From Pseudarthrobacter sp. MM222 (GTDB lineage Bacteria; Actinomycetota; Actinomycetes; Actinomycetales; Micrococcaceae): a DNA stretch of 64,000 bases. The notes under the pieces were generated by a model. The model searched no databases and had not been told where the DNA came from. It worked only from the letters and a program-made list of their open reading frames with translations. The stretch covers positions 3,410,001 to 3,474,000 of the forward strand of contig NZ_OX352321.1 in assembly GCF_947090775.1 (NCBI RefSeq), written 5' to 3'. A program made the position numbers and the translations under genes. Positions 19,325 to 35,349 of the stretch are shown here, piece after piece; position 1 is the stretch's first letter, and each line of letters starts with the position of its first letter.

Positions 19325-20605
19325 CTACGGGGTCAGTGCGCGGGACTTGGTGGTGCGGGGCGTGCGGGGAGCGTTCGGGGAGGTGGTGCTGTAGTCTGCG
19401 GTCTTGAAGTGCGACGGCGCGAACGGGCTGACGCGGACGACGTCGCCGATGACGATCACGGCAGGGTTCGCGACGCCGGCGGCCTCCGCCTGGTCCGCAA
19501 TTGTCCCGAGCGTTCCGATGGTCACCCGCTGGTTCGGCAGGTAGCCATTCTCTACGATGCCAACAGGTGTCCCTGCTGGCAAACCGGCACGGGCCAGGGA
19601 AGCGGCGGAGTCACGGAGCTGGCCGACGCCCATGAGCAGGATCACGGTGTGATCGGCGCGGGCCGGGACCTCGGAGAGCTCCTCGTGGCCGGTGACCACG
19701 CTGAAGCCTTTGGCGAGGCCGCGGTGCGTGACCGGGATTCCCGCGGCGGCCGGAACGGAGATGGCCGAGGTCACGCCCGGGACCACTTCCACCTCGACGC
19801 CGTTCTGCCGGCAGAACTCGGCTTCCTCGCCGCCGCGGCCCAAAACGTAGGGGTCGCCGCCCTTGAGCCGGACTACGCGGTGTCCCTGCACGGCCTCGTC
19901 AACCAGGATCCGGTTGATTTCCGACTGCGGGACCGGATGGTGTCCGGGGGTCTTGCCAACTTCGATGACGCGGACGTCCGGGGCCAGCTCGCCGAGGAGT
20001 TCGCGGGGGCCCAGACGGTCCGCCACCACGACGTCGGCCTGGCCGAGCAGCCGCCGTCCGCGGACCGTGATAAGCCCGGTGTCGCCGGGTCCCCCGCCGA
20101 CCAGGGCCACGGAACCGCCGGACGCCCGCCGCCGGCGCAACGGCAGGTCGCCGGTTTCCAGGGCAGTGGCGACGGCGTCGCGGAGGGCCATGGCGCGGCG
20201 CGGGTCTCCGCCGGCGTTTACGGCGATCTTGATATCGTCCACGACTGCGACGGCCGGGGTCCAGGCTGCGGAGGATTCATGGTCGGAGGCGTTGACGCAC
20301 CAGACGCGCTGCGCTTCCGCGTCGGCAGAGACCTGCGCGTCAACAGCGGGGATGCCGGTGGCGGTCTGGACGAACCAGACGCCGTCGACGTCGGACGTCC
20401 GGTACGGGCGCGGCTTCCAGGTGAGGAGGCCGGCGTCGGCAAGGCCAAGAAGCGCCGGCGAGGCGAGCGGGGCCACGACGGTGACGAGGGCGCCGGCGTC
20501 GAGCAGTCCCCTGGCGCGGCGGGCAGCGACCGGGCCGCCGCCCACCACCAGCACGGGGCGGCCGAGGAGGCGCAGCGCCGTGGGGTAAATGTCCTGAATT
20601 GCCAT
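19325..20605 (-). CDS. cobA: Bifunctional siroheme synthase: precorrin-2 dehydrogenase and uroporphyrinogen-III C-methyltransferase
   Basis: A 426-residue fusion. The N-terminal NAD-binding domain ([20 protein letters not shown], about 12-31) is a precorrin-2 dehydrogenase. The C-terminal SUMT domain has [18 protein letters not shown] and [20 protein letters not shown]. It makes sirohydrochlorin from uroporphyrinogen III; iron insertion is probably done by CbiX (35414-36124). The ATG at 20605 has no ribosome site, but a -10 hexamer TATCGT ends six bases before it, so the mRNA is probably leaderless. The promoter carries the four-unit 10-bp repeat shared with sir and the sulfonate transporter. 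A Thr/Pro/Arg-rich tail ends the protein. Confidence 0.92.
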
Positions 20606-20611
20606 GCATCG

Positions 20612-20683
20612 ACGATAGGGCCCCGTTCTGAAGCGGAACAACGGCGCGGAAACACCCGTTCACGCGGGGTAACGTTCCGTCAC
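20612..20683 (-). promoter_or_regulatory. cobA promoter with four-unit 10-bp repeat operator
   Basis: On the plus strand the units GAAAC, TTCAC, GTAAC and GTCAC start at 20649, 20659, 20669 and 20679, exactly 10 bp apart. A gap of 31 bp separates the array from the hexamer TATCGT (minus strand, 20617-20612). The start codon lies six bases after the hexamer. Array and hexamer match the sir and sulfonate-transporter promoters in spacing. Confidence 0.65.
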
Positions 20684-25738: not shown

Positions 25739-26710
25739 CTAGCGGGTGCTACCGGCGAGGAGGCCGCGGCGGCGGAGCAGCCGCTTTTCAATCGGTGCGA
25801 AGACGAGCAGTTCGATCAGGATGCCGACGGCGAGGATCAGCAGGATCGCGGACATCACCACGGTCATGTCCGAGAGGTCGCGGCCCTGGTTGAGCATGGA
25901 ACCCAACCCGAAGCCGATGCTTCCGCCGACCGCGATGATTTCCGCGGCCATCAGGGAACGCCAGGAGAACGCCCAGCCCTGTTTTAGTCCGCTCAGGTAG
26001 CCGGGCAGAGCGGCGGGGAGGATGATCTGCAGGGCAAGTTGCAGGCGCGAGGCGCCAAGAACGGTGCCGACGCTGCGGTACTGCGGCGGGATCTGGTCCA
26101 CCCCGGAAATCAGCCCGTTGATGATCGATGGGATGGCCCCCATGAACACCACGAAATACACGGTGGCATCCGTGAGGCCGAACCAGATGATGGCGGCCGG
26201 CACCCAGGCCACGGACGGCAGCACCTGGAGCCCTGAAATCAGCGGGCCGAACGCGCGGCGCAACGGTGCCACCTGCGCCAGCAGGAGTCCGATCGGAGTG
26301 GCGATGGCCACGCTGATCAGGAACCCCAGGAGTCCGCGTTGCAGCGAGGTCCAGACGGCTTCCTGGAGCTTGCCCCCTGCCCAGAGATTGCCGAACTGTT
26401 CCAGCACGTCCAGCGGGCCGGGAACCAGATCGCGCCGCTTGAAGCCCATCGACACGTAGAGCTGCCAGACGATAACGAGCACCACGACCGCGGCGACCGG
26501 GAGCAGGATCCGGCTCCAGTCGATGCGGGCCTTGTGCCCGGCGTCGGACTGCAGCGAGTCCAGCCCGGATTCCAGCTCACGAAGGTCGGCCTTTCCGGTG
26601 GAGGACCGGGTCAGCGCCGCCGTGACGGACGCCGCCCTGGGCGAGGCGCCGTTGCGCGCGGGGTCCGCGGCGGCATCGGCCGCGGCGGAGAACAAGGACT
26701 TACTTGGCAT
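25739..26710 (-). CDS. ssuC: Sulfonate-type ABC transporter permease
   Basis: A 323-residue permease of the SsuC/TauC family. Six helices follow a long N-terminal cytoplasmic region of about 80 residues. The EAA-type loop is VGTVLGASRLQLALQIILPA, and WRSLMAAEIIAVGGSIGFGL is a family block. Its start overlaps the end of the ATPase gene by 11 bases. It is the last gene of a unit ordered binding protein, ATPase, permease. Sulfonate rather than taurine or nitrate is inferred from the sulfur-type promoter upstream of the operon, so the gene name is tentative. Confidence 0.82.
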   Translation of the reverse strand: MPSKSLFSAAADAAADPARNGASPRAASVTAALTRSSTGKADLRELESGLDSLQSDAGHKARIDWSRILLPVAAVVVLVIVWQLYVSMGFKRRDLVPGPLDVLEQFGNLWAGGKLQEAVWTSLQRGLLGFLISVAIATPIGLLLAQVAPLRRAFGPLISGLQVLPSVAWVPAAIIWFGLTDATVYFVVFMGAIPSIINGLISGVDQIPPQYRSVGTVLGASRLQLALQIILPAALPGYLSGLKQGWAFSWRSLMAAEIIAVGGSIGFGLGSMLNQGRDLSDMTVVMSAILLILAVGILIELLVFAPIEKRLLRRRGLLAGSTR

Positions 26711-27425
26711 GACGGCGGATCTCCTCGCGAAGCCGGGCGGTGATGACACCCGTGAGCTGGCCGGCCAGGCCGGCGTCGGTACGGTGTTCTTCGCTGACGT
26801 GCCATTCCTGCACAACACGGCCGGGGCGGGAGGAGAGCAGCAGCACGCGCTGCCCGAGCCTCACAGCCTCACGGACATTGTGCGTGACGAAGACGATGGT
26901 GCGGCCGGTTTCCTTCCAGATCCGTTCCAGCTCATCGTGGAGCAGGTCCCGGGTGATCGCGTCCAGGGCCGCGAACGGCTCGTCCATGAGCAGCAGTTGC
27001 CGGTCCTGCGCCAGCGAGCGGGCCAAGGCCACGCGCTGGCGCATCCCGCCGGACAGCTCATGCGGGCGTTTGTCCCCCGCCCCGTCCAAATGCACAAGCT
27101 CGAGTAGCTCATCGGATTTCACCCGGCGGTCGGCCTTCCCGACGCCGCGCAACTTCAGTGCCAGTTCGATGTTTTCCCGGGCCGTGAGCCAAGGGAAGAG
27201 CGCCGCGTCCTGGAACATGAAGGCGGCTCCGTCGCTGGGCACCTCCAGCGCTCCCGACGTCGGGGCCTCCAGTCCCGCCATGATGTTCAGCAGGGTGGAC
27301 TTGCCGCAGCCGGACGCACCGAGCAGGGCGACGAATTCGCCCTGCTCGATGGTGGCATTGACGTCGTCCAGCACCGGGGCGCCGTCGCCGAAGCGCTTGC
27401 CCAGGTTTTCCAGTACGACTGGCAT
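26700..27425 (-). CDS. ssuB: Sulfonate-type ABC transporter ATP-binding protein
   Basis: A 241-residue ATPase. Walker A is LLGASGCGKSTLLN (about 37-50), the signature is ELSGGMRQRVALAR, Walker B is QLLLMDEPFAALD, and the switch histidine is in IVFVTHNVREA. It belongs to the nitrate/sulfonate/taurine ATPase group. The ATG at 27425 follows AAGGA; the GTG six bases earlier is less well placed. It energises the adjacent SsuC-like permease. Confidence 0.87.
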   Translation of the reverse strand: MPVVLENLGKRFGDGAPVLDDVNATIEQGEFVALLGASGCGKSTLLNIMAGLEAPTSGALEVPSDGAAFMFQDAALFPWLTARENIELALKLRGVGKADRRVKSDELLELVHLDGAGDKRPHELSGGMRQRVALARSLAQDRQLLLMDEPFAALDAITRDLLHDELERIWKETGRTIVFVTHNVREAVRLGQRVLLLSSRPGRVVQEWHVSEEHRTDAGLAGQLTGVITARLREEIRRHAK

Positions 27426-27467
27426 GGTCACGTCCTTACTATTTTGAGCGGGTGGAGCGGAAGTGGA

Positions 27468-28661
27468 CTAGTCCTTGCCGAGTCCCTGCGCGGAAATCCT
27501 GTTCCCCGAGGAGCCCTCGCCCACGACGCTGTTCAGTGCCGTGAGGTTAAAGATGCCGTTGATATCGGCCTGGCTGGTGGTGCCGGCGTCCACCCCGTCC
27601 TGGAGCAGTTTCTGGTACGTCCCGGCGAGCGGATCGACAGTGAAGGCGATGTTCTTGAGCGAACGGTCAATCACCTCGGGCGGCAGGGTTGCCCCTGCGG
27701 CTTCCTTCAGGGCCGCGTTCAGCCTTGCGGCTTTGTCGGCGTCGGAGGCGGCATTGAGCCAGTCCACGGACTCGGTGTGGCCCTTCAGCAGAGCCTTGAC
27801 GGTGTCCGGGTGCTGGGCCGCAAAGTTCTTGTTGACGATCAGGACCGTGGTGATGAACTCGCCTTTATCCCACAGGTCCTTCTCGTCGACGAGGACCTTC
27901 GCGCCGGCCTGAAGGACCAGCCGGGACGCCCACGGTTCCGGCAGCCACGCCCCGTCGAGCTTGCCGTCCTGGAACAACTTCAGGGTCTGGGCGTTTTCGG
28001 TGGGGTTGATGGCGACGTCGCCGCTGCCGTCGGTGGACGTCTTGTAGCCCTGCTTGCCAAGCCAGGCGCGCAGGGCCACGTCCTGGGTGCCGCCGAGCTG
28101 CGGCGACGCGAGCTTCTTGCCCACGAGGTCCGCAGCCGAGGTGATCTCCGGCTTCACCACCAGCTGCGCCCCGCCGGACGCGGCGCCGGCGATGATGTTA
28201 ATCGATTCGCCCTTGCTCTTGACATAGGAGTTGATCGCCGGGTTGGGACCGATGTAGGTGGCGTCGATGGCGCCGGCGTTGAGGGCCTCGATGGCGGCCG
28301 GGCCGGCGTTGAAGACCTGGGTGCTGAGTTTGGTGTCGCCGAGGTGCTTGGCGATCAGGCCCTGGCTGACGCCGACCAGCCCCGGGGCGTGGGTGATGTT
28401 GCCGAAGTAACCGAGTTTGAGTTCGGTGGCGGGCGCCGCCGCGACGGCGGCCGGAGCGGCGGCCTCAGCGTTGCTGCGGGACACGGTGGACGCCACCGAG
28501 GCGCCCGCGCCGATCAGCACCGCAAGTCCGGCGGCGAGGCTGATCTCAAGGGTGCGCTTGCGCTTGGGCTTGCCGGACTCGCCGGCGACGATCCGCGTGG
28601 TGCCGGGCGTCGGTTGCGGGTCCTGCGGGGCGGAGGTGGGGTTTTCGGGCGTTGATGACAT
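27468..28661 (-). CDS. ssuA: Sulfonate-type ABC transporter substrate-binding protein
   Basis: A 397-residue periplasmic-type binding protein of the SsuA/TauA/NMT1 family. An unusually long polar N-terminus (about 36 residues ending in KPKRKR) precedes the hydrophobic stretch TLEISLAAGLAVLIGAGASV, a signal peptide or membrane anchor without a clear lipobox. Mature-part blocks include ELKLGYFGNITHAPGLVGVS and DGAWLPEPWASRL. It heads the transporter operon. Its promoter region (28782-28853) carries the same four-unit 10-bp array as sir and cobA, supporting a sulfur-acquisition role. Confidence 0.85.
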   Translation of the reverse strand: MSSTPENPTSAPQDPQPTPGTTRIVAGESGKPKRKRTLEISLAAGLAVLIGAGASVASTVSRSNAEAAAPAAVAAAPATELKLGYFGNITHAPGLVGVSQGLIAKHLGDTKLSTQVFNAGPAAIEALNAGAIDATYIGPNPAINSYVKSKGESINIIAGAASGGAQLVVKPEITSAADLVGKKLASPQLGGTQDVALRAWLGKQGYKTSTDGSGDVAINPTENAQTLKLFQDGKLDGAWLPEPWASRLVLQAGAKVLVDEKDLWDKGEFITTVLIVNKNFAAQHPDTVKALLKGHTESVDWLNAASDADKAARLNAALKEAAGATLPPEVIDRSLKNIAFTVDPLAGTYQKLLQDGVDAGTTSQADINGIFNLTALNSVVGEGSSGNRISAQGLGKD

Positions 28662-28781
28662 GGCGGAAGTCCTGTTCTCGGGAAGGCGGGTTGGCCGGGC
28701 GGGTGGTCAGCTCCGGCGACATCGCCCCCGGAAAGTCCGGCGCGGGCGGCCGGAGGGGCTTTTTCGGGTTGTCATGGTTTC

Positions 28782-28853
28782 ACCATAGGGAGTGTTCTTA
28801 ACGCGGTTCAATGGTCCGGAAACCGGGGGTCACAGGGGTTCACGGAGCGTCAT
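28782..28853 (-). promoter_or_regulatory. ssuABC promoter with four-unit 10-bp repeat operator
   Basis: Units GAAAC, GTCAC, TTCAC and GTCAT start at 28819, 28829, 28839 and 28849. The hexamer TATGGT (minus strand, 28787-28782) is 31 bp from the array, as at cobA and sir. The transcript would have a leader of about 115 bases before the 28661 start codon. Confidence 0.6.
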
Positions 28854-30216: not shown

Positions 30217-31677
30217 TCAGATCGAGTAGCGCTCGTCCTCGTGGTCTCCCGGGTGGTCCTTGACCAGCCCGGCTGCAAGGGTGTTGCCGTCGAGCGGGTC
30301 GATCACGAGGAACGCGCCGGTGCGGCGGTGGTGCAGGTAGTTCTCCAGCGGGAGCGGCGCAGCGAGTCGCAGCTGGGCGTGGCCGATGTCGTTGAGTTCC
30401 AGCGTGGAGGTCGGTTCCAGCTGGAAGCTGGCGAGGTCCAGTTTTCCGGTCACGTTCCGGACCAGGGCTTGGACCGTGCGGGTGCCATGCTTGACCAGAA
30501 CCTTGGTGCCCTCGCGGAGCGGTTTCGGCGAGAGCCAGCAGAGCGCCGCATACAGGTCAGCCGAGGCCTCCAATACTTTGCCACCGGCGGGCCCGGCGGC
30601 CGCGATCGTGTCACCGCGGGCCACATCGAATTCGTCCGCGAGGCGCAACGCCACTGACTGCGGAGCCACTGCCTCGGTGAGCTCACGTCCGGCAAAGTCG
30701 ATGCCGGTCACCGTGGTGGTGCGCGGTGACTGGCCGGGGGTCAGGACGCTGACCTTGTCCCCCACCTTCACCGATCCTTCGGTGATCTGGCCGGCGTAGG
30801 CGCGGTAATCCCGGTACGCCGCCACGTCCAGCCCGGCGGCGACGGCGTCGGGGGCCAGCGCCCCCTGCGGCCGGACCACGAGCTGAACCGGGAAACGGAA
30901 GCTCTCCAGGTGGCTCTCGAGCTCGTCCGCGGCGGGCAGCGTCTCCAGGACTTCGAGCAGGGCCGGGCCGTCGTACCAGGGCGTACGGTCCGAGCGGTCC
31001 ACGACGTTGTCGCCGTCGAGCGCGGACACCGGAATGACGAAGAGATCGGAGAGCCCGCCGGAGTTTGAATCGTCCCGGCCCAGCCCGAGCTCGCGGCCCA
31101 CCTGCTGGACGTCGGCTTCGATCCCGCGGAACACGTCCTCGCTGAAGTCGACGAGGTCGATCTTGTTCACGGCAACAATGACATGGGCCACGCGCAGCAA
31201 CTGCAGCACGGACAGGTGCCGGCGGGTCTGCTCCAGGACACCCTTGCGGGCGTCGATCAGCACGACGACGGCGTCCGCGGTGGACGCGCCGGTGACCGTG
31301 TTCTTGGTGTACTGCACATGCCCGGGGCAGTCCGCCAGGATGAAGCTGCGCCGGTCAGTGGCGAAGTAGCGGTAGGCGACGTCGATGGTGATGCCCTGCT
31401 CACGCTCGGCGCGCAGGCCGTCGGTCAGCAGGGCGAGGTCAATCCGCTGTTTCCCGTCCGGGTCTGTGGCGCCCTCCCCGCCAAAGCCGCGGTCCGCGGA
31501 CGTGCGGGCGACGGCGTCGAGCTGGTCGGCGAGGATGGCCTTGGAGTCGTGCAGGAGCCGGCCTACGAGGGTGGATTTACCGTCGTCGACCGAGCCTGCG
31601 GTGGCGAAGCGGAACAGCGTCGTGGACAGGACCGGCGAGGACAGGTCTGTGCCGAGGAACGAGGTGTCGGTGCTCAT
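30217..31677 (-). CDS. cysN: Sulfate adenylyltransferase subunit 1 (GTPase)
   Basis: A 486-residue elongation-factor-like GTPase that drives sulfate activation to APS together with CysD. G-motifs are SVDDGKSTLVGR (Lys34), DCPGHVQYTKN and NKIDLVDF. After the GTPase domain (about 1-235) come two beta-barrel domains. No APS-kinase (CysC) domain is fused at the C-terminus, consistent with an APS-reductase pathway. It directly follows cysD, whose stop overlaps its first base, and is the last gene of sir-cysH-cysD-cysN. Confidence 0.95.
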   Translation of the reverse strand: MSTDTSFLGTDLSSPVLSTTLFRFATAGSVDDGKSTLVGRLLHDSKAILADQLDAVARTSADRGFGGEGATDPDGKQRIDLALLTDGLRAEREQGITIDVAYRYFATDRRSFILADCPGHVQYTKNTVTGASTADAVVVLIDARKGVLEQTRRHLSVLQLLRVAHVIVAVNKIDLVDFSEDVFRGIEADVQQVGRELGLGRDDSNSGGLSDLFVIPVSALDGDNVVDRSDRTPWYDGPALLEVLETLPAADELESHLESFRFPVQLVVRPQGALAPDAVAAGLDVAAYRDYRAYAGQITEGSVKVGDKVSVLTPGQSPRTTTVTGIDFAGRELTEAVAPQSVALRLADEFDVARGDTIAAAGPAGGKVLEASADLYAALCWLSPKPLREGTKVLVKHGTRTVQALVRNVTGKLDLASFQLEPTSTLELNDIGHAQLRLAAPLPLENYLHHRRTGAFLVIDPLDGNTLAAGLVKDHPGDHEDERYSI

Positions 31678-32624
31678 TAGAAATAGCCGTCCTTCTTGCG
31701 GTCTTCCATGGCGGCCTCGGAGATGCGGTCATCTGCCCGGGTCGCGCCACGTTCGGTGATGGTGGAGGCGGCAACTTCAATCACGACCTCGCGCACGGTG
31801 GCAGCGGCGGATTCGACCGCTCCTGTGCAGGACATGTCCCCCACGGTCCGGTAGCGGACGGTCTTGGTGAGGACTTCCTCGGAGTCCCGCGGCTGGGAAA
31901 CCTCGCCGACAGCGCGCCACATGCCGTCGCGGGAAAAGACCTCGCGGTCGTGGGCGTAGTAAAGACCGGGCAGTTCGATGCCTTCGCGCTCGATGTAGCG
32001 CCAGACGTCCAGTTCGGTCCAGTTGCTGATCGGGAACGCGCGGACGTGCTGGCCCACGGTGTGCCGGCCGTTGTAGAGGTTCCACAGCTCGGGGCGCTGG
32101 TTGCGCGGGTCCCACTGGCCGAATTCATCGCGCAGGCTCAGGATCCGCTCCTTGGCGCGGGCCTTGTCCTCGTCCCGTCGGCCGCCGCCGAAGACGGCGT
32201 CGAACTTGTTGCGCTGGATCGCATCCAGCAGCGGCACCGTCTGCAGCGGGTTGCGGGTACCGTCGGCACGCTCGGCCAGCTCGCCGCTGTCGATGAACTC
32301 CTGCACGGAGCCCACCACCAGCTTCAGGCCCAGCCGCTCCACCGTCCGGTCGCGGAAGTCGATGACCTCGGGAAAGTTGTGGCCGGTGTCAACGTGCAGC
32401 ACCGGGAACGGAACCTTGCCCGGCCAGAACGCCTTGGTGGCCAGGTGCAGCATCACCACGGAGTCCTTGCCGCCGGAGAACAGCAGCGCAGGCTTCTCGA
32501 ACTCGGCCACAACCTCGCGGATGATGTGGATGGCCTCGGACTCAAGGGTGTCCAGGCTGGAGAGGCGCGTGAAATCGGCTGCTTCAGTCACCTGGGGGGT
32601 CTCCTCGGTTAGGAAAGTGCTCAT
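31677..32624 (-). CDS. cysD: Sulfate adenylyltransferase subunit 2
   Basis: A 315-residue ATP-pyrophosphatase-fold subunit that forms APS from ATP and sulfate. The PP-loop is LLFSGGKDSVVML at about residues 42-54; VDTGHNFPEVIDFRD and FGGGRRDEDKARAKER are family blocks. The ATG at 32624 overlaps the cysH stop as ATGA, so it is favoured over the ATG five codons upstream. It acts with CysN encoded next. Confidence 0.95.
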   Translation of the reverse strand: MSTFLTEETPQVTEAADFTRLSSLDTLESEAIHIIREVVAEFEKPALLFSGGKDSVVMLHLATKAFWPGKVPFPVLHVDTGHNFPEVIDFRDRTVERLGLKLVVGSVQEFIDSGELAERADGTRNPLQTVPLLDAIQRNKFDAVFGGGRRDEDKARAKERILSLRDEFGQWDPRNQRPELWNLYNGRHTVGQHVRAFPISNWTELDVWRYIEREGIELPGLYYAHDREVFSRDGMWRAVGEVSQPRDSEEVLTKTVRYRTVGDMSCTGAVESAAATVREVVIEVAASTITERGATRADDRISEAAMEDRKKDGYF

Positions 32625-33526
32625 ACGTGTAGTCCGCATTCTGTCTTGTCGGTTCCTGCCCAGCGTCCGGCGCGGGGATCATCGCCGGGCGCCACCTTGC
32701 GGGTGCAGGGCTGGCAGCCAATGGACGGGTAGCCCTGTGAAAGCAGCGGGTTGACGGGGAGGAGATTGTCATCGGAGTACTGGACGAGCTGGTCGAAGCT
32801 CCAGGCCGCGAGCGGGTTGACCTTGACCAGGCCGTTGGCTTCGTCCCAGGTGACCAGCGGGGTGTTCGTCCGGGTGGGGGCCTCGTCGCGGCGGACTCCG
32901 GTGAACCAGAGCTCATAGCCGGCGAGGGTGCGGCGCAGCGGGGCAACCTTGCGCAGCGCGCAGCACTGGGCGGCGTCGCGGGCGAAGAGGTCCTTGCCCA
33001 GGAGCCGGTCCTGCTGCTCGACCGTGTTCTCCGGCAGCACGTCGACGACGTTGACGCGGAGGTTGGCGGCCACTTCGTCGCGCGTGGCGTAGGTTTCCGG
33101 GAAGTGGTAGCCGGTCTCGAGGAACAGGACGTCGACGCCGGGAAGCTGGTCCGCGACGAGGGCCGGCAGCACGGCGTCGGCCATCGAGCAGGCGACCGTG
33201 ACGGCGGGCAGGTCGAAGTTCCGTGCCACCCAGGCGATGACTTCGCGGGCCGGGGCGTCCCAGCCGAGCTCTGCGGCGCCGGCTTCGGCCACGGCCTTGA
33301 GTTCCCCGTGGGAACGCAGTACCGCAGGCGGCGCCGTATCCGCGGAGGGGCCACGGCCACCGGGGTCCCCGGCCGAGGGCCCACGGCCGCCGGGTTCCCT
33401 GGCCGAGGGCCCACGGCCGCCGGGTTCCCTGGCCGAGGGCCCACGGCCGCCGGGTTCCCTGGCCGAGCTTGCGAGGCTAGGGAGCGGCTGGGGACTTGCG
33501 AGGCTAGGGAGCGGCTGGGGAATCAC
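32621..33526 (-). CDS. cysH: APS reductase (CysH, iron-sulfur type) with tandem-repeat N-terminus
   Basis: A 301-residue reductase. Four cysteines of the [4Fe-4S] type (CCALRKVAPL and GCQPCTRKV) and the redox cysteine in ECGLHV mark it as an adenylylsulfate reductase, which needs no CysC; none is seen here. The GTG at 33526 overlaps the sir stop as GTGA and has AAGGAG seven bases upstream. The first ~60 residues are not part of the fold: they come from two 27-bp and about four 30-bp tandem repeats and read PQPLPSLAS twice, then SAREPGGRGP-type units. Family members lack this extension as far as I know. Confidence 0.92.
   Translation of the reverse strand: MIPQPLPSLASPQPLPSLASSAREPGGRGPSAREPGGRGPSAREPGGRGPSAGDPGGRGPSADTAPPAVLRSHGELKAVAEAGAAELGWDAPAREVIAWVARNFDLPAVTVACSMADAVLPALVADQLPGVDVLFLETGYHFPETYATRDEVAANLRVNVVDVLPENTVEQQDRLLGKDLFARDAAQCCALRKVAPLRRTLAGYELWFTGVRRDEAPTRTNTPLVTWDEANGLVKVNPLAAWSFDQLVQYSDDNLLPVNPLLSQGYPSIGCQPCTRKVAPGDDPRAGRWAGTDKTECGLHV
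33341..33521. repeat. In-frame minisatellite in the 5' end of cysH
   Basis: A 27-bp unit occurs twice in tandem (33468-33494, 33495-33521). A 30-bp unit beginning GGCCGAGGGCCCACGG occurs three times exactly (33371-33460), with one diverged copy (33341-33370) and a 7-bp partial copy. Both unit lengths are multiples of three, so copy-number change would keep the frame. Confidence 0.95.
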
Positions 33527-35271
33527 TGCAGGTCTCCTTCGTCGGCGGCGAAGGCCCATTCGGCGAAGGTCTGGTCTGCGGACCGGTCCGCAACGAACTT
33601 CCGGACGACGCGTTCAACGTAGTCGGGAAGCTCGTCCGCCGTGACCTTGAGGCCGCGGACGGTGCGTCCCAGGCCCGCTTCTTCACGTTCCACGGATGCC
33701 AGCCCGCCGCCGAGGTGGACCTGGAAACCCGGAGTGGGGTCGCCGTCGGGCGTCGGCAGCATCATGCCCTTCAGGCCGATGTCCGCCGTCTGGATCCGTG
33801 CGCAGGAGTTAGGGCAGCCGTTGATGTGCAGGGACAGTGCCTCGGGCAGCTGCTTGCTCGCGGTGAGGTCGGCGAGGCGGCGCTCCAGCTCGGCGACGGC
33901 GGTGGCCGCGGTGAGCTTGGTTTCCACGATGGCGAGCTTGCAGAATTCGATGCCGGTGCAGGCGATGGTGCCGCGGCGGAACACGGACGGCCGGGCGGAG
34001 AGGCCCAGCGCATCGAGTTCTGCCACCAGCGGCTCGACCTGCGCCTGGGGGACGTCGAGGACGACGATTTTCTGGTGCGGGGTGGTGCGCAGCCGCTGCG
34101 AGCCGTGGGCCTCCAGGGTAGCGGCAAGCTTCACCAGCTGGCTGCCGGAGAGGCGGCCGGCCAGTGGGGTGGCGCCGATGAAGAACCTGCCGTCCTTCTG
34201 TTCGTGGACGCCGATGTGGTCGCCCGGGGAGGAGGGCTTGGGGGCTGCCGGGCCGTCGGCAAGCTTGTAGCCGAGGTATTCGTCCTCGAGGACCTGGCGG
34301 AACTTTTCCGGCCCCCAGTCCGCGAGCAGGAACTTGAGCCTGGCCTTGGTGCGCATCCGGCGGTAGCCGTAGTCGCGGAAGATGCTCGTTACGCCGAGCC
34401 ACACGTCGGCGGCCTGGTCCGGCCGGACGAAGGCGCCGAGGCGCTTGCCCAGCATGGGGTTGGTGGAGAGCGCGCCGCCCACCCAAAGGTCGTAGCCGAT
34501 GCCGAGCTCGGGGTGTACCAAGCCGACGAGGGCGACGTCGTTGATCTCGTGGACCACGTCCTGGCTGGGGTGGCCGGTGATCGCGGTCTTGAACTTGCGC
34601 GGCAGGTTGGCCAGTTCCGGGTCGCCGATGAAGCGTTCGGCGAGCTCGTGGATCAGCGGCGTGGGGTCGATGATCTCGTCCTTGGCGATGCCGGCAACCG
34701 GGGAGCCGAGGATGACGCGCGGAACGTCGCCGCAAGCCTCGGTAGTGGACAGGTCCACGGACTCCAGTCGGCGCCAGATCTCGGGGACGTCCTCCACCCG
34801 GATCCAGTGCAGCTGGATGTTCTGGCGGTCGGTGAGGTCGGCCGAGTCGCGGGCGAAGTCCACGGAGATCTGGCCGATGACACGGAGCTGCTCGGTGGTG
34901 AGGGCGCCGCCGTCGATCCGGACGCGCAACATGAAGTACTTGTCTTCGAGTTCGTGCGGTTCGAGCGTGGCGGTCTTGCCGCCGTCGATCCCGGGTTTGC
35001 GCTGGGTGTACAGGCCCCACCAGCGGAAGCGGCCGTGCAGGTCGGTGCCGTCGATCGAGTCGAAGCCGTGCTTGGAGTAAACGGACTCGATACGCTCGCG
35101 GACGTTCAGGCCGTTGTCTTCCTGCTTCCAGGTTTCGTTGGCATTCAGTGGGGCGGTCCCGTCCACCTTCCACTGGCCGTGCGGCTTCGCAGCGGGGCGG
35201 GAGGTGGGGCGCTTGGCGCGGCCTGGGGCAGCCTGGTCCGGGGACGCTCCGGCTAGAGCTGTATCAGTCAT
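33523..35271 (-). CDS. sir: Ferredoxin-dependent sulfite reductase
   Basis: A 582-residue siroheme/[4Fe-4S] reductase converting sulfite to sulfide with six electrons from ferredoxin. Cluster cysteines are C438-x5-C444 (CTGIEFC) and C486-x3-C490 (CPNSC). Tyr88 (WWGLYTQ) and Cys180 (TTEACGDVP) are 92 residues apart, the same spacing as the Tyr69-Cys161 pair of Mycobacterium tuberculosis NirA, which supports sulfite rather than nitrite. It heads the sir-cysH-cysD-cysN operon. The ATG lies six bases after a TACAGT hexamer with no ribosome site, so the mRNA is probably leaderless. Confidence 0.95.
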   Translation of the reverse strand: MTDTALAGASPDQAAPGRAKRPTSRPAAKPHGQWKVDGTAPLNANETWKQEDNGLNVRERIESVYSKHGFDSIDGTDLHGRFRWWGLYTQRKPGIDGGKTATLEPHELEDKYFMLRVRIDGGALTTEQLRVIGQISVDFARDSADLTDRQNIQLHWIRVEDVPEIWRRLESVDLSTTEACGDVPRVILGSPVAGIAKDEIIDPTPLIHELAERFIGDPELANLPRKFKTAITGHPSQDVVHEINDVALVGLVHPELGIGYDLWVGGALSTNPMLGKRLGAFVRPDQAADVWLGVTSIFRDYGYRRMRTKARLKFLLADWGPEKFRQVLEDEYLGYKLADGPAAPKPSSPGDHIGVHEQKDGRFFIGATPLAGRLSGSQLVKLAATLEAHGSQRLRTTPHQKIVVLDVPQAQVEPLVAELDALGLSARPSVFRRGTIACTGIEFCKLAIVETKLTAATAVAELERRLADLTASKQLPEALSLHINGCPNSCARIQTADIGLKGMMLPTPDGDPTPGFQVHLGGGLASVEREEAGLGRTVRGLKVTADELPDYVERVVRKFVADRSADQTFAEWAFAADEGDLQ

Positions 35272-35277
35272 GCATCG

Positions 35278-35349
35278 ACTGTAGGGGTGGCCGTAATCCC
35301 GTCACAAAGGGCCGGAAACGGGAGGTCACCTAGGGAAACAAATCGTCAC
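35278..35349 (-). promoter_or_regulatory. sir operon promoter with four-unit 10-bp repeat operator
   Basis: Units GAAAC, GTCAC, GAAAC and GTCAC start at 35315, 35325, 35335 and 35345, each exactly 10 bp apart. The hexamer TACAGT (minus strand, 35283-35278) is 31 bp away and the ATG follows after CGATGC. Relative to that start the array covers about -44 to -78, a position suited to an activator. Confidence 0.65.

Follow-up and report, generated by a model that had tools for sequence, protein, structure and literature searches.

Three promoters in a 64,000-nucleotide stretch of the Pseudarthrobacter sp. MM222 chromosome (contig C1, 3,410,001-3,474,000, of the 4.29-Mb single-contig genome G000; here called the window) are preceded by the same row of short, evenly spaced repeats, and lead into the sulfur-related genes sir, cobA and ssuA. 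The question raised by this locus is whether the row is a common operator and, if so, what kind of protein reads it.

Array and promoter layout at sir, cobA and ssuA

All three genes lie on the minus strand, each with an array upstream (Table 1). The gene sir is the first of an operon ordered sir-cysH-cysD-cysN; the best named matches of its protein, among the best 80 of at least 588 named sir loci, come from Arthrobacter and Pseudarthrobacter. On the gene strand, the array reads GTGAC-N5-GTTTC-N5-GTGAC-N5-GTTTC or a close variant, and the promoters share one order: four units, 7 bp, a TTGNNN -35-like hexamer, 18 bp, a -10-like hexamer, 6 bp and the ATG. The preliminary description had claimed four half-sites at a 10-bp pitch, followed by exactly 31 bp and then TACAGT, TATCGT or TATGGT. 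Both points hold at all three promoters, the 31 bp being made up of 7 bp, the 6-bp -35 hexamer and the 18-bp spacer. The units it quoted were correct in sequence, but they had been read from the plus strand, opposite to the genes.

Two gene starts were corrected in the course of this comparison. For cobA, the start is taken as the ATG at 20605 and not the upstream TTG of the mechanical ORF; at the ssu promoter, the ATG at 28775 opens a 22-codon ORF, and the ssuA ORF proper begins at 28661. Because the ATG lies only 6 bp past the -10 hexamer, transcripts from the sir, cobA and ssu promoters are probably leaderless. The promoters are not recent duplicates of one another, as had been argued before: outside the units and the -10 hexamer, they agree at 19 (sir-cobA), 32 (sir-ssuA) and 30 (cobA-ssuA) of 66 positions. 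A more distant common origin of the three is conceivable; the agreement at 32 and 30 positions exceeds the level of unrelated sequence.

Table 1. Features of the three promoters, their genes and related loci. Plain coordinates are those of the window; C1 and L coordinates refer to the contig and to extracted loci.
Feature	Position	Strand	Remarks
sir operator, GTGAC/GTTTC/GTGAC/GTTTC	35315..35349	(-)	Four 5-bp units, 10-bp pitch
sir units 1-4	35349-35345, 35339-35335, 35329-35325, 35319-35315	(-)	
sir -35-like hexamer, TTGTGA	35302..35307	(-)	7 bp past unit 4
sir -10-like hexamer, TACAGT	35278..35283	(-)	sir ATG at 35271, 6 bp on
sir	33523..35271	(-)	Ferredoxin-type sulfite/nitrite reductase family; Pfam NIR_SIR, NIR_SIR_ferr; NCBIfam
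cysH, cysD, cysN	30217..33559	(-)	APS/PAPS reductase and sulfate adenylyltransferase subunits; 3' of sir; Pfam, NCBIfam
cobA operator, GTGAC/GTTAC/GTGAA/GTTTC	20649..20683	(-)	10-bp pitch
cobA -35-like hexamer, TTGTTC	20636..20641	(-)	
cobA -10-like hexamer, TATCGT	20612..20617	(-)	
cobA/cysG-type siroheme synthase	19325..20605	(-)	Uroporphyrinogen-III methyltransferase and NAD-binding domain; putative leaderless start 20605
ssuA operator, ATGAC/GTGAA/GTGAC/GTTTC	28819..28853	(-)	10-bp pitch
ssuA -35-like hexamer, TTGAAC	28806..28811	(-)	
ssuA -10-like hexamer, TATGGT	28782..28787	(-)	
22-codon ORF, putatively leaderless (MTTRKSPSGRPRRTFRGRCRRS)	28707..28775	(-)	Between ssu promoter and ssuA
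ssuABC-type aliphatic sulfonate ABC transporter operon	25739..28661	(-)	SBP, ATPase, permease
ssuA	27468-28661	(-)	ATPase and permease genes come next
Divergent array pair (L130)	C1 98,291-98,325 / 98,341-98,375	(-) / (+)	Adjoins SBP_3 ABC gene
Further array (L131)	C1 108,489-108,523	(+)	Same 98-113 kb cluster
GlnR-like array at nirB	L132 ~18.0-18.3 kb		11-bp pitch
GlnR-like array at amtB	L130 ~8.6-8.85 kb		11-bp pitch
L145 gene	L145:910-1776; G000:C1 580.4-581.3 kb	(+)	288 aa; GlnR-like DNA-binding domain, no receiver, N-terminal domain of unassigned type
Cysteine-tailed ORFs	L086, L095, L091, L102, L104, L107		≤420 bp upstream of sir

Distribution of the array and the predicted regulon

The pattern proposed in the preliminary description, with up to three mismatches, matched at 3 places in the window against 0.04 expected, and searches of the genome and the family likewise gave sites above the control rate, so the array does not occur at random. 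With the gene-strand consensus and up to three mismatches, the MM222 genome yielded only the sir and cobA sites (reversed control, 0). A first degenerate pattern with at most one mismatch found six places against none in the control. Three were the sites already known, two lay at 98,291 (-) and 108,489 (+), and there was one other; a closer look at the 98-kb site revealed a second array facing the opposite way. Because the pattern was widened after that site had been seen, the five places that it matches without mismatch in the 4.29-Mb genome (sir, cobA, ssuA and the divergent pair at C1 98.3 kb) are no independent test, and with up to two mismatches it gave 16 places against 5 in the reversed control. 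Seven of ten weaker places examined fall within ORFs and one precedes a flavin reductase gene, as does a match in a relative (G177). The stronger matches are mainly at sulfur genes: sir, siroheme synthase, the sulfonate ABC operon and an SBP_3 ABC/monooxygenase cluster. The last of these, at 98-113 kb, encodes two SBP_3 proteins, a permease, luciferase-like monooxygenases, a GNAT protein, an FAD-NAD(P) protein, an SBF symporter and a SulP sulfate permease, and from this gene content is probably an organosulfur scavenging cluster.

When 197 family genomes were searched with the gene-strand consensus, allowing up to two mismatches, 27 of them contained a total of 35 matches; the reversed control had 1. 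Inspection of 29 of these loci placed 23 before the expected genes (17 sir, 2 cobA, 4 ssuA) and left six (L015, L021, L022, L023, L029, L030) before other or unclear genes. Near position 1500, L015, L021 and L022 share a repeated pattern, TGACACT-N-GTTTC-TTGAC-N-TGACAC, and the long ORFs behind it appear similar by eye; the pattern resembles the consensus but is probably the operator of something else. The degenerate pattern with at most one mismatch occurred at 66 places in 25 chosen family genomes, some of them inside ORFs, against 8 in the control. A same-genus draft genome, G106 (99% complete), has no array place, and a search at E ≤ 1e-100 did not find sir in it; each of the 11 other genomes sampled from the genus has between 2 and 9 such places.

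Conservation was scored in the 250 bp before sir in the best 80 of at least 588 named loci, a choice by which close relatives are over-represented, with families assigned from genus names and 2 of 25 Microbacteriaceae loci left out for short upstream sequence. Runs of at least two units at 10-bp pitch were present at 33 of the 37 Micrococcaceae loci, 22 of the 23 Microbacteriaceae loci and all 4 Brevibacterium loci, and at none of the 14 loci from other Micrococcales. For these four groups in the same order, the Markov control at pitch 10 gave 1.1, 0.55, 0.25 and 0.15 loci, while runs at 11-bp pitch were found in 2, 2, 0 and 0 loci and at 9-bp pitch in 3, 4, 0 and 0. The four Micrococcaceae loci that have no such run are L078, L085, L096 and L103. 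Runs of four or more units are found in 26 of 37 Micrococcaceae loci and in 2, 0 and 0 loci of the remaining groups, although in Microbacteriaceae four-unit arrays look by eye to be commoner if GCGAC, GCTAC and TTAAC are counted as units. Three-unit runs occur in Nesterenkonia, two Brevibacterium and some Microbacteriaceae, and the run at L065 consists of GTGAC only.

The distance to the promoter is fixed as well. A four-unit match was present in 26 of 29 Micrococcaceae sir loci examined for geometry, and in all 26 the last unit lies 42-44 bp from the sir ATG (43 bp in 21). At the -35 place, 18 of the 26 have a TTG-initial hexamer and the other 8 have TTG 1 bp further on; TACAGT is the -10-like hexamer in 18 of 26. 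The leaderless geometry is seen in Arthrobacter-type promoters, and in Microbacteriaceae the array lies further upstream. Before cobA, the array recurs in G009 and G123 (by BLAST) and in G006 (by eye), and a four-unit site precedes ssuA homologues in 24 of 54 loci, our own included, some of the loci having been fetched by the pattern itself. The operator is kept at the sir, cobA and ssuA promoters of relatives, and the view that sulfur genes have one operator in common is supported. The longest array seen, six units in 10-bp register, stands before ssuA in another genome (G187:C33 ~11.0 kb, L031).

Fifteen Microbacteriaceae genomes were searched with a pattern modelled on the sir sites of that family, at most three mismatches being allowed. 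It gave 66 places against 35 for the reversed control, the latter mainly in G511 (13), G504 (8) and G513 (6), a ratio that makes the adapted pattern weak evidence by itself. Thirty of these loci were examined: 15 matches lie before sir in 11 genomes, some being overlapping registers of one site, and 5 fall inside ORFs. A zero-mismatch site precedes ssuA in Cryobacterium glucosi (L238). Sites with two mismatches lie before the gene for an SsuA-like SBP (L234) and before that for a bifunctional O-acetylhomoserine/O-acetylserine sulfhydrylase (L250), which scored 805 bits against a cut-off of 703. By our reading, L242 and L245 may encode peptide-type SBPs and L248 a cysteine-desulfurase-like ORF. 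Since the pattern has little specificity, only sir and the zero-mismatch ssuA site are more than tentative as single targets in Microbacteriaceae. The predicted regulon comprises sir-cysHDN, siroheme synthase, ssu, the organosulfur cluster and, tentatively, metY.

Proposed mechanism and candidate binding proteins

Starting from the array as observed, with its pitch, its conservation, its fixed distance from the promoter and its link with sulfur genes, we lean toward reading it as the operator of a sulfur-starvation regulon in Micrococcaceae, Microbacteriaceae and Brevibacterium, at which a putative head-to-tail activator would act on a weak leaderless promoter. Just upstream of the promoter (TTGNNN, 18-bp spacer, TANNNT), protomers of the activator would line up head-to-tail along one helix face, each on its own 10-bp unit and most often four in number, and would help RNA polymerase to start the leaderless mRNA when reduced sulfur is short. 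Contact with the polymerase is suggested because the units share a helix face and end 7 bp before a weak -35 followed by an 18-bp spacer; the position upstream of the -35 also points to activation rather than repression. Sulfur limitation is the presumed signal because the regulon covers sulfate reduction, siroheme and sulfonate uptake. The preliminary description had inferred two bound dimers, but runs of three and six units exist too. Because runs of two, three, four and six units occur (the short ones depending on how a unit is defined), the stoichiometry that we infer is one protomer per unit.

An OmpR-type activator is a plausible binder, judging by the half-sites, their head-to-tail order and the place beside the -35; the OmpR/PhoB type is marked by half-sites repeated in tandem at roughly one helical turn, either ahead of the -35 or overlapping it, and the array has this layout. 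The protein is probably a winged-helix protein of this type; its half-sites are GlnR-like, but it would bind them the other way round from GlnR and at a pitch of 10 rather than 11 bp. As no regulator gene could be linked to the array, its class is read from half-sites and architecture only. The OmpR sites of Escherichia coli are 10-bp tandem half-sites with GxxxC. The array shares with them the 10-bp pitch, the GNNNC half-sites and the predicted head-to-tail binding upstream of a promoter, but it belongs to another phylum and other genes, and its half-sites are reversed in orientation.

The actinobacterial sulfur-gene regulators CysR, SsuR and NdgR bind sites of other shapes. In Corynebacterium glutamicum, the ROK-family protein CysR activates the sulfate-reduction cluster and a sulfonate regulator gene, and according to the available part of the source its site, like the array, lies a few bp upstream of the -35 (PMC2580772). 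The CysR/SsuR operator described there is, however, an inverted repeat of two 10-bp motifs 6-8 bp apart, with a TGAAtnnAAt core, and lies 3 bp upstream of the -35, whereas the array is by eye made of direct units 7 bp upstream. The IclR-family NdgR of Streptomyces coelicolor binds upstream of cysI-cysH-cysC-cysD-cysN, other cys genes and cysG at a 15-bp imperfect palindrome (available part of PMC4340878), unlike the direct repeats seen by eye here. MocR regulators, many of which use direct repeats (available part of PMC5320631), were also considered and set aside, their two or three boxes of varied arrangement being a misfit. The preliminary description recognised no published operator of such a form; we found none in the open-licence literature either, nor an operator or regulator for sulfate and sulfonate assimilation in Arthrobacter-like and Microbacterium-like bacteria.

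ORFs around the 80 sir loci were clustered, and no conserved regulator was recognised on reading by eye the clusters present in at least six loci, representatives of 90 further ORFs from 28 mostly array-bearing loci, or the genes behind the Microbacteriaceae matches. Nor did these surveys, made largely by eye, reveal a regulator gene that carries the array or lies reproducibly beside it. The array itself offers a DNA bait, with a clear contrast in the lineages that lack it. OmpR-type domains number 17 in MM222 against 13 in G106. The names GlnR, MtrA and RegX3 in MM222 are our own, from reading of the sequences. G106 has close matches to the RegX3-, MtrA-, GlnR-, NnaR- and L145-like proteins and lacks close matches to several response regulators and SARP-type proteins, among which no sulfur link was seen. 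Having kept the GlnR-, NnaR- and L145-like proteins while neither sir nor the array was found in it, G106 is a natural subtraction for finding the regulator.

One tentative proposal, to which we give limited credence, is that Micrococcaceae and Microbacteriaceae have an undescribed master sulfur regulator, possibly the orphan winged-helix protein L145, in which a relative of the GlnR-type domain would polymerise at a 10-bp pitch and in reverse. That the L145 family itself supplies the binder is a slightly more doubtful claim. Of the winged-helix domains of MM222 compared, L145 has the recognition helix (RTIDVHIRRLRSKLG) that by eye comes nearest to the one in the GlnR-like protein (RTVDVHVRRLRAKLG), and its best sequence matches among solved structures are the OmpR-family regulators 8hig and 8hml, which we take to be GlnR structures. 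The published half-sites of GlnR in turn resemble the array units (available part of PMC10704036). The family also roughly follows the array: matches reach 174-568 bits in all 21 Micrococcaceae and Microbacteriaceae genomes tested, Brevibacterium scores about 100 bits, and in array-less Intrasporangium, Terrabacter, Knoellia, Cellulomonas bogoriensis, Antribacter and Pseudokineococcus the match, to the winged-helix part, scores only 56-61 bits. Against this, divergent homologues (80-93 bits) occur in array-less Sanguibacter, Oerskovia, Cellulosimicrobium and Brachybacterium, G106 keeps L145 at 82-84% identity, and all 24 sampled family genomes have it, including 9 in which no sir was found at E ≤ 1e-100. 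Present in genomes without sir or array, L145 is therefore too widespread for co-occurrence to discriminate. In 22 loci, the sequence upstream of its gene showed no excess of 10-bp pairs (1, with 0.6 expected by chance), and its neighbours, as far as readable, include no sulfur genes. The structure model of L145 has a mean pLDDT of 65.6, with the first 87 residues below 50. Database names for L145 are generic (winged helix-turn-helix protein; one "regX3").

The alternation of GTGAC and GTTTC admits another kind of activator. Operators of the AraC type have paired A and B boxes for each monomer, in a direct repeat of about 21 bp. An AraC/XylS-type protein, with two helix-turn-helix motifs per monomer, could cover an a-b pair (10 bp), and two monomers 20 bp; the 20-bp super-repeat in Arthrobacter and the abutment of the array on the -35 agree with this. 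The three-unit runs and the GTGAC-only run at L065 need no a-b pairs. We give such a protein a low probability.

A further alternative, which we rate as quite improbable, is that GlnR binds the array in a second mode, coupling sulfur to nitrogen supply. A GlnR-like gene is present in MM222 (L134) and in all six Microbacteriaceae genomes checked, and is also kept in operator-less Knoellia and G106. Two GlnR-like arrays of MM222 lie before genes that we take, reading by eye from the ORF starts, to be nirB and amtB (Amt). When a permissive unit is used (the fourth one at amtB is GAAAA), the coding strand of each has a single series of units, at exactly 11 bp, and pitches of 8-10, 12 and 13 bp give none; in Markov shuffles, the chance of a run of at least three at 11 bp is 0.004 (nirB) and 0.002 (amtB). 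At sir, cobA and ssuA, by contrast, GTCAC/GAAAC stand on the template strand, and 11-bp pairs precede sir in 4 of 78 loci, near background, with no 11-bp run of three. GlnR is unlikely because its own presumed arrays in this genome have the 11-bp pitch and the coding-strand direction. The published consensus is an a-b-a-b series, gTnAc-n6-GaAAc, bound by four domains head-to-tail at 11-bp pitch (available part of PMC10704036). The preliminary description was right on both counts, that the half-sites look GlnR-like (the plus-strand GAAAC/GTCAC/GAAAC/GTCAC at sir agrees with GTnAC/GnAAC) and that their spacing is not that of GlnR. Compared with the GlnR operator of the same source, the array has very similar tandem 5-bp half-sites upstream of the -10, four of which would be bound head-to-tail by winged-helix domains, but it differs in pitch, in strand relative to transcription and in serving sulfur, not nitrogen, genes. 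One genome with both kinds of array, 10 and 11 bp and opposite in direction, would be a good system for studying how tandem winged-helix regulators read spacing.

Still less probable is the HemD-OmpR fusion NnaR, which serves the siroheme enzyme nitrite reductase and would here bind the array and sense a siroheme precursor. Its attraction is that sir and cobA are both siroheme-related, and that the NnaR-like gene of MM222 (L147; Pfam HEM4 and Trans_reg_C) clusters with a second uroporphyrinogen methylase and a nirB-like gene; published NnaR is also an actinobacterial orphan OmpR-type activator of a siroheme enzyme, with targets that have leaderless features (available parts of PMC6277429 and PMC11162112). 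Yet the same sources give its site as the palindrome CTCAC-N16-GTGAG near a GlnR box at nitrogen genes, whereas our three operators are by eye direct repeats; in addition, its recognition helix differs, it is kept at 77% in G106 without the array, and sulfonate uptake has no siroheme need of its own. Upstream of the nirB array, an imperfect CTCAC...GTGA dyad is close by eye to the published NnaR motif.

Finally, that the units are a structural element (a bend or UP-like) or chance, with no dedicated protein, is scarcely credible: one-turn phasing can by itself bend DNA, but the units are sequence-specific and GC-containing, precede sir in three families and cobA and ssuA in relatives, and were not seen at the 14 other Micrococcales sir loci.

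Short open reading frames at sir and ssuA

Lineages without the array were searched within 420 bp before sir for ORFs of 10-60 codons in which three or more of the final ten residues are cysteine. Of the 14 operator-less loci, 6 have such an ORF, where Markov shuffles gave 0; these are the two Sanguibacter loci, the Oerskovia locus, the two Cellulosimicrobium loci and that of Cellulomonas bogoriensis, with endings such as TCCCCC, SSCCCC, CPRCCR and SSCCR. Antribacter has a cysteine-rich ORF of a different shape, and no cysteine-tailed ORF was found before sir in the remaining seven operator-less loci. In the array-bearing families, one occurs in 1 of 64 loci against 0.7 expected. Array and cysteine-tailed ORF are thus all but mutually exclusive, the one exception being at chance level, in a small sample that follows phylogeny. 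Cysteine-rich leader ORFs act as attenuators in mycobacteria. The ORFs before sir suggest cysteine-dependent attenuation of sir in array-less lineages. If an undescribed master sulfur regulator does act at the array, the same sir operon would be under cysteine-tailed leader peptides in some related families, and one ancestral pathway would have been rewired between activator and attenuation.

Short ORFs were also seen at the ssu promoter. Those with an RC core (GRCR, DRCR, RRCR, etc.) occur in 11 of the 24 ssuA-homologue loci with a site, our own included, and in 9 others of these 24 the frame continues towards ssuA.
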